Assembly (NCBI RefSeq): GCF_011057715.1
Contig: NZ_LNGH01000009.1
Location: forward strand, 1-59,077
Source of the DNA: Marinitoga sp. 38H-ov
Lineage (GTDB): Bacteria > Thermotogota > Thermotogae > Petrotogales > Petrotogaceae
Reading direction: 5' to 3'
DNA: 59,077 bases
The position numbers were made by a program, and so were the translations under genes. Shown here in pieces: positions 20,078 through 56,513 of the stretch. Position 1 is the first letter of the stretch; every line of letters starts with the position of its first letter. Under the pieces are notes generated by a model. The model did not search any database and was not told where the DNA came from. It saw nothing but the letters and a program-made list of their open reading frames with translations.

Positions 20078-20106
20078 TTGACAATGATAAAAAGAAATAG
20101 TATAAT
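20078..20106 (+). promoter_or_regulatory. Sigma-70 promoter of rubredoxin 1, with a possible decayed PerR site
   Basis: A perfect TTGACA (20078-20083) and TATAAT (20101-20106) are separated by 17 bp. The base pattern around the -10 resembles the perR and ferritin promoters: TATAGAT follows the -10 in the position of TTTAGAT, but the left half (ATGATAA) is poor. A weakened operator is possible. Confidence 0.85.
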
Positions 20107-20136
20107 TATTATAGATTTTAAAAAGGGGGAGATTTT

Positions 20137-20298
20137 ATGAAAAAATATGTATGTACAGTATGTGGGTATATTTATGATCCAGCAGAAGGGGATCCTACAT
20201 CAGGTATTCCAGCAGGCACAAGTTTTGAAGATTTACCTGAAGATTGGGTATGTCCAATGTGCGGAGTTGGAAAAGATATGTTTGAAGTACAAGAATAA
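20137..20298 (+). CDS. rub: Rubredoxin 1
   Basis: A 53-aa one-iron electron carrier. The four iron-ligand Cys lie in two CxxC motifs, [10 protein letters not shown] near the start and [10 protein letters not shown] near the end. The length is typical for a rubredoxin. The start has AAAAAGGGGG 7 nt upstream. It differs from the second copy at 23294-23455 at only about 4 residues. It has its own promoter and terminator, so it is a single-gene transcript. It probably donates electrons in oxygen or superoxide reduction, which fits the desulfoferrodoxin and ferritin genes elsewhere in the window. Confidence 0.97.
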
Positions 20299-23293: not shown

Positions 23294-23455
23294 TTATTCT
23301 TGTACTTCAAACATATCTTTTCCAACACCACACATTGGACATACCCAATCTTCTGGTAAATTCTCAAAAGTTGTTCCTGCTGGGATACCTGCTGTTGGAT
23401 CTCCTTCTTCTGGATCATAAATATAACCACATACTGTACATACATATTTTTTCAT
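23294..23455 (-). CDS. rub: Rubredoxin 2
   Basis: A 53-aa rubredoxin with both CxxC iron-binding loops ([10 protein letters not shown] and [10 protein letters not shown]). It differs from rubredoxin 1 at about positions 16, 22, 29 and 32 only. It begins 12 bp after the perR stop with a GGAGGG ribosome binding site and has no promoter of its own, so it is cotranscribed with perR. This makes it a likely peroxide-inducible copy. Confidence 0.97.
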
Positions 23456-23467
23456 AGTTTTCCCTCC

Positions 23468-23872
23468 TTATTTATTTAGACAATCTTTACATATACCTGT
23501 AAGTAAATATTGTATTTTCGTTATTTTATGGCCTTCAATCTGTTCTATTTTAGGAACATCTGGAAGTTTTTCTTCGATATCAAAAACTTTTCCGCATTTT
23601 TCACAGTAAAAATGATTATGCTCATTATAAAAATAATCGTATCTAATTGCACGGGGGGTAACGATTTCTTCAATTACACCTTTTTCACTTAATAAATTTA
23701 CAGTGTTAAAAACTGTTGCTCTTGAAATTGCAGGAGTATGATCTTTTAATAGTTCATATATTTCATCTGCTGAAGGATGTTCTTTTCTTTCGGATATTAA
23801 CTTTAAAATAGTTAATCTTTGAAATGTTGGTCTAATCCCATAACTTTTAAGAATTTCCTCATATTTTTTCAT
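23468..23872 (-). CDS. perR: Peroxide-responsive Fur-family repressor PerR
   Basis: A 134-aa Fur-family regulator. By alignment from memory with Bacillus PerR, all regulatory metal ligands are present: His in KEHPSADEIY, Asp in RYDY, the two His in NEHNH, and Asp in GKVFDI. Fur proteins usually have Glu at that last position. The structural zinc Cys pairs CEKC and CKDC are also present. These features favour PerR over Fur. The start is ATG 23872, with AAAGGAG 8 nt upstream; longer in-frame starts are read through the promoter. It is the first gene of an operon with rubredoxin 2. The promoter carries a palindrome that is repeated at ferritin, consistent with autoregulation. Confidence 0.9.
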   Translation of the reverse strand: MKKYEEILKSYGIRPTFQRLTILKLISERKEHPSADEIYELLKDHTPAISRATVFNTVNLLSEKGVIEEIVTPRAIRYDYFYNEHNHFYCEKCGKVFDIEEKLPDVPKIEQIEGHKITKIQYLLTGICKDCLNK

Positions 23873-23893
23873 AATCATATCTCCTTTGACATT

Positions 23894-23932
23894 ATCTAAA
23901 TTTATTATACTATTTTTTTTAGATATTGTCAA
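23894..23932 (-). promoter_or_regulatory. perR promoter with overlapping PerR operator
   Basis: The minus strand has a perfect -35 TTGACA (23927-23932), a 17-bp spacer and -10 TATAAT (23904-23909). The half-sites ATCTAAA and TTTAGAT (23894-23924, 31 bp overall) flank the -10 box. Outside them the arms extend as GACAATATC and GATAATGTC. The same element in the same register occurs at 55482-55512. Confidence 0.88.
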
Positions 23933-23974
23933 TATTTATATATTTCAAATATGTAAAATTGATATCATATATAT

Positions 23975-55464: not shown

Positions 55465-55473
55465 AAAAATAAC

Positions 55474-55512
55474 TTGACAAAATCTAAAAAATATAATATA
55501 ATAATTTTAGAT
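55474..55512 (+). promoter_or_regulatory. Ferritin promoter P1 with overlapping PerR-type operator
   Basis: Perfect -35 TTGACA (55474-55479), 17-bp spacer, -10 TATAAT (55497-55502). The half-sites ATCTAAA (55482) and TTTAGAT (55506) flank the -10 box, 31 bp overall, in the same positions as at perR. This predicts PerR repression of ferritin and desulfoferrodoxin. Confidence 0.88.
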
Positions 55513-55545
55513 AAAGTATAAAAATATATTTGTATTAAAAAAACA

Positions 55546-55574
55546 TTGACTTAAAAATTTTTAAGGTGTATAAT
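55546..55574 (+). promoter_or_regulatory. Ferritin promoter P2
   Basis: TTGACT, 17-bp spacer, TATAAT, about 35 bp before the ferritin start. The spacer contains a perfect palindrome TTAAAAATTTTTAA. It lacks the ATCTAAA/TTTAGAT halves, so P2 may be constitutive or controlled differently. Confidence 0.75.
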
Positions 55575-55607: not shown

Positions 55608-56120
55608 ATGTTAAAAAGTAAAATGTCAGAAGCATTAAATAAGCAAATAAACGAAGAATTATATTCTTCCTATTTATATTTATCGATGTCAGCATATTTT
55701 GATAATATGGGATTAAAAGGTTTTGCGAATTGGATGAGGATTCAGGCAATGGAAGAAAGAGATCATGCTATGAAATTATTTGATTATTTATTGAGTCAAG
55801 GTTCTGAAGTTGATTTAAAAGAAATTAAAGAACCACAACATAAATGGAATGGGATTAAAGATGTTATAGAAGCTACATTAGAACATGAACAACACATAAC
55901 TCAATGTATTAATGATTTAGTTGATATTGCTGAAGAGTTAAAAGATAGAGCTACATATAATTTCTTGCAATGGTATATTGATGAACAAGTGGAAGAAGAA
56001 GAAAATGCGAGAGAAATATTGGATAAATTAGAATTAATTGGTGATAGTAAAGATGCATTATTTATGTTAGATAAAGATTTGGCTCAAAGGGTTTATACAC
56101 CACCAATAACACAAGCGTAG
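55608..56120 (+). CDS. ftn: Ferritin (FtnA type)
   Basis: Iron storage protein that oxidises Fe(II). The 170-aa four-helix protein has the ferroxidase ligands in NEELYSSYLY, AMEERDHAMK and LEHEQHIT, plus EQVEEEENA. There is no haem Met evidence, so it is ferritin rather than bacterioferritin. The start is ATG 55608, behind AAAAGGGGTGATGGT. It is the first gene of an operon with desulfoferrodoxin under PerR-type control. Confidence 0.95.
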   Translation: MLKSKMSEALNKQINEELYSSYLYLSMSAYFDNMGLKGFANWMRIQAMEERDHAMKLFDYLLSQGSEVDLKEIKEPQHKWNGIKDVIEATLEHEQHITQCINDLVDIAEELKDRATYNFLQWYIDEQVEEEENAREILDKLELIGDSKDALFMLDKDLAQRVYTPPITQA

Positions 56121-56132
56121 GGAGGGATTTTA

Positions 56133-56513
56133 ATGACTAAGAGAGGACAAGTTTATAAATGTGAAAAGTGTGGAAACATTGTTGAAGTATTACATGAAGG
56201 TGCTGGAGAATTAATTTGTTGTGGGGAACCTATGAAACTATTTGAAGAAAAAACAGCAGATTCATCAGTTGAAAAACATGTTCCATTTATTCAAGAAGTT
56301 GAAGATGGTTATTTAGTAAAAGTTGGTGAAACAACAGCTCATCCTATGACTGAAGAACATTATATAGAATGGATAGAATTAACAGTTGATGGAGAAGTAT
56401 TTAAAAAATTCTTAACTCCAAACGATAAACCTGAGGCATTGTTTAAAGTTGCTAAAGGAAAAGAAGTTTCAGCAAGAGAATTTTGTAATTTACATGGATT
56501 ATGGAAAAAATAA
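56133..56513 (+). CDS. dfx: Desulfoferrodoxin (two-iron superoxide reductase)
   Basis: Reduces superoxide to peroxide in anaerobes. The 126-aa protein has both iron sites. The N-terminal desulforedoxin centre is CEKCGNI...ICCGEPM (four Cys). The C-terminal centre has His in [21 protein letters not shown] and the Cys/His pair in [10 protein letters not shown]. Rubredoxin, encoded twice in this window, is the usual electron donor. GGGAGGG lies upstream, 12 bp after ferritin. Confidence 0.96.

Follow-up and report, generated by a model that had tools for sequence, protein, structure and literature searches.

Two promoters in one stretch of Marinitoga sp. 38H-ov DNA carry the same long interrupted palindrome, and the locus thus raises the question of which regulator the element serves and whether it is read as one long operator or as a pair of ordinary ones. 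The first-pass annotation had taken it for the operator of PerR, with a geometry that departs from the compact sites typical of this protein family. We examined the element within the window (the whole stretch of DNA analysed, 59,077 nucleotides), in the rest of its genome, and in a comparison set of 103 genomes of the phylum.

Results

The regulator gene, perR (23468..23872, minus strand), encodes a 134-aa Fur-family protein (Pfam FUR, 6e-24) whose best solved relative is B. subtilis PerR (2fe3), and the ORF list places a 53-aa rubredoxin gene (23294..23455, minus strand) downstream of it in the same direction, an arrangement matched in genome G025. The perR promoter consists of a -35 hexamer TTGACA (23927..23932, minus strand) and a -10 hexamer TATAAT (23904..23909, minus strand) with a 17-bp spacer. 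The half-sites that had been described as flanking the -10 over 31 bp, ATCTAAA-N17-TTTAGAT, are present with 0 mismatches at 23894..23924 (minus strand); the interval first assigned to the element ran to 23932 and includes the -35 hexamer. The layout had been called identical at the ferritin promoter, and it is: the second copy (55482..55512, plus strand) also has 0 mismatches and lies between a -35 at 55474-55479 and the first genes behind it, ferritin (170 aa; 55608..56120, plus strand; Pfam Ferritin, 1.2e-46) and then desulfoferrodoxin (superoxide reductase, 126 aa; 56133..56513, plus strand; TIGR00320, 181.5 bits with a cut-off of 146.9), the -10 TATAAT of this promoter, P1, being at 55497..55502 (plus strand). 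Both promoters are of the form TTGACA-N17-TATAAT and share the register TTGACA-N2-ATCTAAA-N8-TATAAT-N3-TTTAGAT (perR, minus strand 23932-23894; ferritin, plus strand 55474-55512), and the whole 59-kb stretch holds no further exact match to the 31-bp pattern.

In sequence simulated from the window's own first- and third-order composition, the expected number of exact palindromes per 59 kb was 0.015 (Markov-1) or 0.0125 (Markov-3), about 0.013 overall, and 0 of 400 simulated runs contained two. The earlier judgement that two copies are unlikely to be fortuitous therefore stands, with the reservation that the two promoters may be copies of one ancestral promoter, and their occurrences hence not fully independent. 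Once 3 mismatches are tolerated, the count in the window does not stand out from background (37 vs 36.4 expected), so only exact or promoter-anchored copies are informative. The 2.26-Mb genome of the window (G000, 56 contigs) contains three exact copies; the third, C19:4776, was rejected as an operator as it lies within coding sequence, conserved as coding in G025. A promoter-inclusive pattern with up to 3 mismatches matched only the two window sites and the mirror image of the perR site in G000 (control, 0). We also considered as a third window site the promoter (20079-20113) of a rubredoxin gene at 20137-20298, which is at most a weak candidate: one arm is motif-like, the other is poor, and this degraded version of the operator is not conserved in G025. 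This gene and the near-identical rubredoxin gene at 23294-23455 flank uvrA in opposite orientation.

Of the seven same-genus genomes compared, G000 and G025 alone possess this perR (91% identical), alongside a PerR-like paralog (38-39% identical) that occurs by itself in the other five. Exact promoter copies of the 31-bp pattern within the genus were likewise limited to G000 and G025, at perR and ferritin in both, and exact copies elsewhere in the order were mostly within genes, with no stress gene behind them. Among all 103 genomes, TTGAC-N3-ATCTAAA-N17-TTTAGAT with at most one mismatch matched only in G000, G025, and G085, and the reversed control gave 0 matches. G085 belongs to another family, hereafter the second family; its match forms the promoter of a gene orthologous to perR (51% identical), behind which come peroxiredoxin and ferritin. 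The pattern TTGACANNRTCTAAAN8TANNNT had 12 exact matches in the 103 genomes (control, 0), 10 of which are perR, ferritin, or peroxiredoxin promoters in genomes with this regulator (all three promoters in both G000 and G025, and perR in G077, G078, G079, and G085); the matches in G034 and G054 have no stress gene behind them and were taken as chance. A scan of the genome and its relatives, which the first-pass annotation had suggested in the expectation of oxidative-stress genes, returned promoter-anchored matches at perR and ferritin, and the exact promoter-anchored sites of the 31-bp pattern track the genomes that bear the regulator. As a separate observation, a probable IS21-type element with two ORFs lies between ferritin and the desulfoferrodoxin reading frame in G085 (L085 4063-6454), and the N-terminal part of the frame downstream of the insertion looks displaced.

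The two window sites might be alike only through copying, i.e., by promoter duplication and common origin rather than as operators. Most of a 44-bp stretch, spacer included, is the same in the perR and ferritin promoters, and in the second family the genes form one operon, so that a second promoter would have been needed once they were split. We nevertheless regard this explanation as unlikely, because the elements are still present in another family whose regulator is 51% identical, because they persist while their flanks diverge (box 2 of the ferritin promoter, described below, is 17/17 identical in G025 vs only 54% for the upstream flanks), and because the peroxiredoxin promoter offers a third, different context. 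Duplication and operator function are in any case compatible.

The architecture of the element emerged from the orthologous promoters. With a three-sequence alignment as query, orthologs were recovered from several second-family genera, and nine of their perR promoters align with that of the window in one register over 51 columns. Columns 35-51 (box 2) form a 17-bp palindrome centred on a base, which is perfect in G084 (TTTAGACA-A-TGTCTAAA); this perfect site is also the box consensus, TTTAGACAATGTCTAAA. Columns 1-17 (box 1) read NNTTGACAATGTCTAAA, which is the box 2 type with TAGACA changed to the -35 hexamer TTGACA. A distance of 34 bp separates the box centres (columns 9 and 43), and the boxes do not overlap but leave 17 bp between them; a centre spacing of 32 bp derived from 15-mers was replaced after alignment to the 17-bp consensus. 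Across 15 promoters, symmetry was strongest about column 43 (0.67 of pairs complementary vs a shuffled 95% level of 0.64), and the symmetry of column 9 alone was not above the shuffled maximum (0.56 vs a mean of 0.57), the half-symmetry of box 1 being confounded by the -35 requirement. Because both boxes overlap promoter elements, part of their conservation is promoter conservation.

In the window, perR box 1 (TATTGACAATATCTAAA; 23918..23934, minus strand; conserved in G025) contains the -35, in a register equal in the 15 promoters, and perR box 2 (TTTAGATAATGTCAAAG; 23884..23900, minus strand; symmetry centre at column 43) lies over the expected transcription start, each within 3 mismatches of TTTAGACAATGTCTAAA. 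Ferritin box 1 (ACTTGACAAAATCTAAA; 55472..55488, plus strand; equal in G025) overlaps its -35 in the same way, and ferritin box 2 (TTTAGATAAAGTATAAA; 55506..55522, plus strand), over the expected start, is within 3 mismatches of the other-family consensus. The G084 17-mer at up to 3 mismatches occurs at 7 places in the window vs 1.3 expected, three of them being perR box 1, perR box 2, and ferritin box 2. From the ortholog alignment and these matches, the 31-bp palindrome therefore consists of the two inner half-sites of compact boxes.

Fur-family dimers are known to read compact sites. A single long split operator, in which one dimer or a tetramer would read ATCTAAA and TTTAGAT across 24 bp, is in our estimate quite unlikely. 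Its inner halves and N17 spacing are exact at perR and ferritin in both genomes, but in the orthologous promoters the two halves, which such a protein would need together, decay independently: box 1 is decayed and box 2 intact in G082-G084, and the reverse holds in G077 and G079. Where the second family has lost the inner half of box 1 (AAATT, TTAAT, TTATT), box 2 alone is a full palindrome; box 1 also occurs intact with box 2 degenerate, and the outer half-sites are partly conserved as well. Two dimers on one operator are, moreover, established for Zur (PMC4219657). Independent decay of the boxes thus argues against a single split site and for two dimers, an arrangement that the first-pass annotation had mentioned as a possibility and that is now favoured, while its proposal of one long operator unlike the compact Fur/PerR geometry is not supported, since the arms are 15-17-bp odd-centred palindromes in other genera. 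Another palindrome, ATCTAAATTTAGAT, whose centre lies right of the half-site, was discarded because it is perfect only in G085 and its symmetry is weaker elsewhere. In most second-family promoters (alignment A2, columns 18-24; G077-G085) an extra half-site, TTTWGAT, abuts box 1 before the -10; it is absent in the window and is possibly a third site.

The regulator had been named PerR from an Asp at the peroxide-sensing position, and the rest of the protein bears this out. It aligns with B. subtilis PerR 2fe3 over its full length (1.7e-21), with a length and predicted fold typical of the Fur family. The putative sensing ligands H32, D79, H85, H87, and D98 correspond to B. subtilis H37, D85, H91, H93, and D104, and four Cys (C90, C93, C128, and C131) would form the structural Zn site. 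N56 corresponds to the specificity residue N61, and Arg51 is in the recognition helix; the ligands, the Cys, and the Asn are invariant among orthologs (alignment A1). NCBIfam PerR equivalog models are clade-specific, and here they scored below cut-off (best, 92.7 bits vs a cut-off of 180). In B. subtilis PerR, for which the roles of the ligands have been described, D104 and N61 are canonical residues, the latter said to make PerR read Per boxes rather than Fur boxes (PMC8638851). The neighbours and candidate targets of the window PerR (rubredoxin, ferritin, desulfoferrodoxin, and peroxiredoxin) are peroxide-stress genes, and perR orthologs adjoin peroxiredoxin, ferritin, flavodiiron protein, rubrerythrin, and desulfoferrodoxin genes.

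A sequence model trained on the second family only, without the window's genus, was run on the G000 genome; it ranked the ferritin promoter third and found perR only in part. Its top matches (C26, C40, C53:16665, and C8) were a coding site, a tRNA promoter, and unrelated promoters, and were rejected. Among its weak matches a new site, ranked ninth, was the promoter of peroxiredoxin (G000:C53:3558), whose gene is the next one after perR in the second family. Peroxiredoxin itself is vertical, being 88-95% identical through the genus, and within the genus exact box 1 is found in its promoter only in the two perR-bearing genomes, G000 and G025. Two genomes without this perR have near-misses there (G024 is one mismatch off, and in G026 ATCTAAA is shifted by one base), so this contrast between genomes with and without the regulator is only suggestive. 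When the peroxiredoxin promoters were compared (G000:C53:3558-3606 [L143] and L155-L160), all seven same-genus genomes had a Bacillus-like Per box, TGWAATnATTAYA, just after the -10, degenerate in G000, which may be the site of the genus-wide PerR-like paralog. The candidate sites in the promoter are TGTAATnATTACA for the paralog and TTGACATTGTCTAAA for the window PerR. Box 2 of the G025 peroxiredoxin promoter (TTTGTAATTATTACAAA) was not accepted as support for the two-box arrangement, as the same type of box occurs in genomes without this perR.

The paralog, a Fur-family protein encoded at G000:C28:28837-29226 (L042), has PerR-type ligands and could share sites with the window PerR, which counts against assignment of the motif to the latter. 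The operator would then be real but belong to the paralog or to another regulator, and the Bacillus-like box near the box 2 position in all seven peroxiredoxin promoters is in keeping with this. However, no exact promoter-anchored site occurs in the five same-genus genomes with the paralog but not this perR, the motif is absent from the paralog's own promoter, and in both families it accompanies the perR clade; we therefore consider another owner very unlikely. Chance resemblance of A+T-rich promoters would fit the background frequency of the 3-mismatch pattern and the near-misses in G024 and G026, but it is scarcely credible when about 0.013 exact copies are to be expected per 59 kb and the motif, across 103 genomes, is conserved and goes with the regulator, and for exact, promoter-anchored sites it is already refuted.

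Discussion

We conclude from these comparisons that the element is probably (at about 0.85) the operator of a PerR-type repressor, made up of two compact 17-bp Fur-family boxes in each regulated promoter. The shared motif is very probably the docking site of PerR on its own gene and on genes for iron storage and for the removal of superoxide and peroxide. In the established PerR mechanism, the metal-loaded protein sits on the -35 and start region and so keeps the promoter off; when peroxide oxidises one of the ligand histidines, PerR is released. From the motif, its register and conservation, its link to the regulator, the target genes, and the residues, all of which are seen directly, we infer binding, stoichiometry, metal, peroxide response, and direction of control as follows. 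A PerR dimer with Fe2+ or Mn2+ would occupy each box and shut out RNA polymerase; upon oxidation of an iron-ligating histidine by H2O2, PerR would leave the DNA, and perR-rubredoxin, ferritin-desulfoferrodoxin, and, elsewhere in the genome, peroxiredoxin would be switched on.

Like B. subtilis PerR, the window protein has five sensing ligands, four structural Cys, and the counterparts of the D104 and N61 hallmarks, and like the B. subtilis Per box, TTATAATNATTATAA, its boxes are compact odd-centred palindromes on peroxide-stress promoters and on that of perR itself. The operator had been described as unlike the Bacillus box; this is correct for the base sequence (half-sites TGTCTAA/TATCTAA here vs ATTATAA, sharing by eye 4/7 positions per half-site, so that the boxes do not conform to the Bacillus consensus) and incorrect for the geometry, each arm being compact and, as usual, odd-centred. 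Two boxes at a fixed centre spacing of 34 bp, one of which has the -35 inside it, also set the arrangement apart from that of B. subtilis, as does a regulon of anaerobe type (desulfoferrodoxin, rubredoxin, ferritin, and peroxiredoxin). In clostridia, similar anaerobe detoxification genes are placed under PerR, e.g., the C. difficile rbr operon with PerR and desulfoferrodoxin, in the portions of the reports drawn on here (PMC8546684, PMC11980386).

A PerR with a lineage-specific palindrome is already a known kind. For the delta-proteobacteria Desulfovibrio and Geobacter, the portion of the source used here gives predicted, lineage-specific palindromic PerR operators that depart from the Bacillus consensus, including one that overlaps a -10, with perR beside rubrerythrin/roo-type genes; that portion describes no two-box arrangement, and the likeness drawn here covers gene neighbourhood, palindromic form, and promoter overlap (PMC545781). 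Two dimers of a Fur-family repressor also sit on one promoter in the case of E. coli Zur on znuABC, but there the sites overlap and the dimers touch, whereas here the boxes are 17 bp apart (PMC4219657). The literature searched, a partial selection to which curated regulon databases did not belong, yielded no prior description of the PerR operator of this lineage. The likely resolution into two compact boxes means that an unusual binding geometry is no longer needed, and the findings supply a DNA code open to testing, with a list of targets, for the way in which an anaerobic bacterial lineage responds to peroxide.

The distribution of these genes points to lateral transfer of regulator, targets, and operator. 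In the tree, the clade of the second family (95/93) takes in the window PerR, which lies beside that family's genus g29 (88/89) and far from its own genus's paralog; the window ferritin is 74% identical to that of G085 vs 63-66% to other same-genus ferritins; and desulfoferrodoxin occurs, among 21 family genomes, only in G000 and G025, plus a 46% relative in G033. The motif is absent from the other same-genus ferritin promoters where these are readable. The sequences thus fit a joint acquisition of perR and ferritin-desulfoferrodoxin with their operator. No relatives were found among viral contigs, and plasmid relatives are remote (best, 38% identity). It is conceivable, though we hold it only tentatively and at less than even odds, that a PerR from another family brought along operator, ferritin, and desulfoferrodoxin and also took over the peroxiredoxin promoter already present in the genome, whose older Bacillus-like box, retained across the genus, was joined by a new PerR box over the -35. 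If so, two PerR proteins with different boxes would control one peroxiredoxin promoter. Close genomes with and without the regulator, with a peroxiredoxin gene in common, would in that respect be a natural experiment on how a transferred regulator recruits promoters.

Ferritin also has a second promoter in tandem (55546-55574; TTGACT-N17-TATAAT), whose spacer contains a palindrome, CTTAAAAATTTTTAAG (CTTAAATAATTTTAAG in G025). The palindrome may be the operator of another regulator, and transcription from this promoter would bypass P1.
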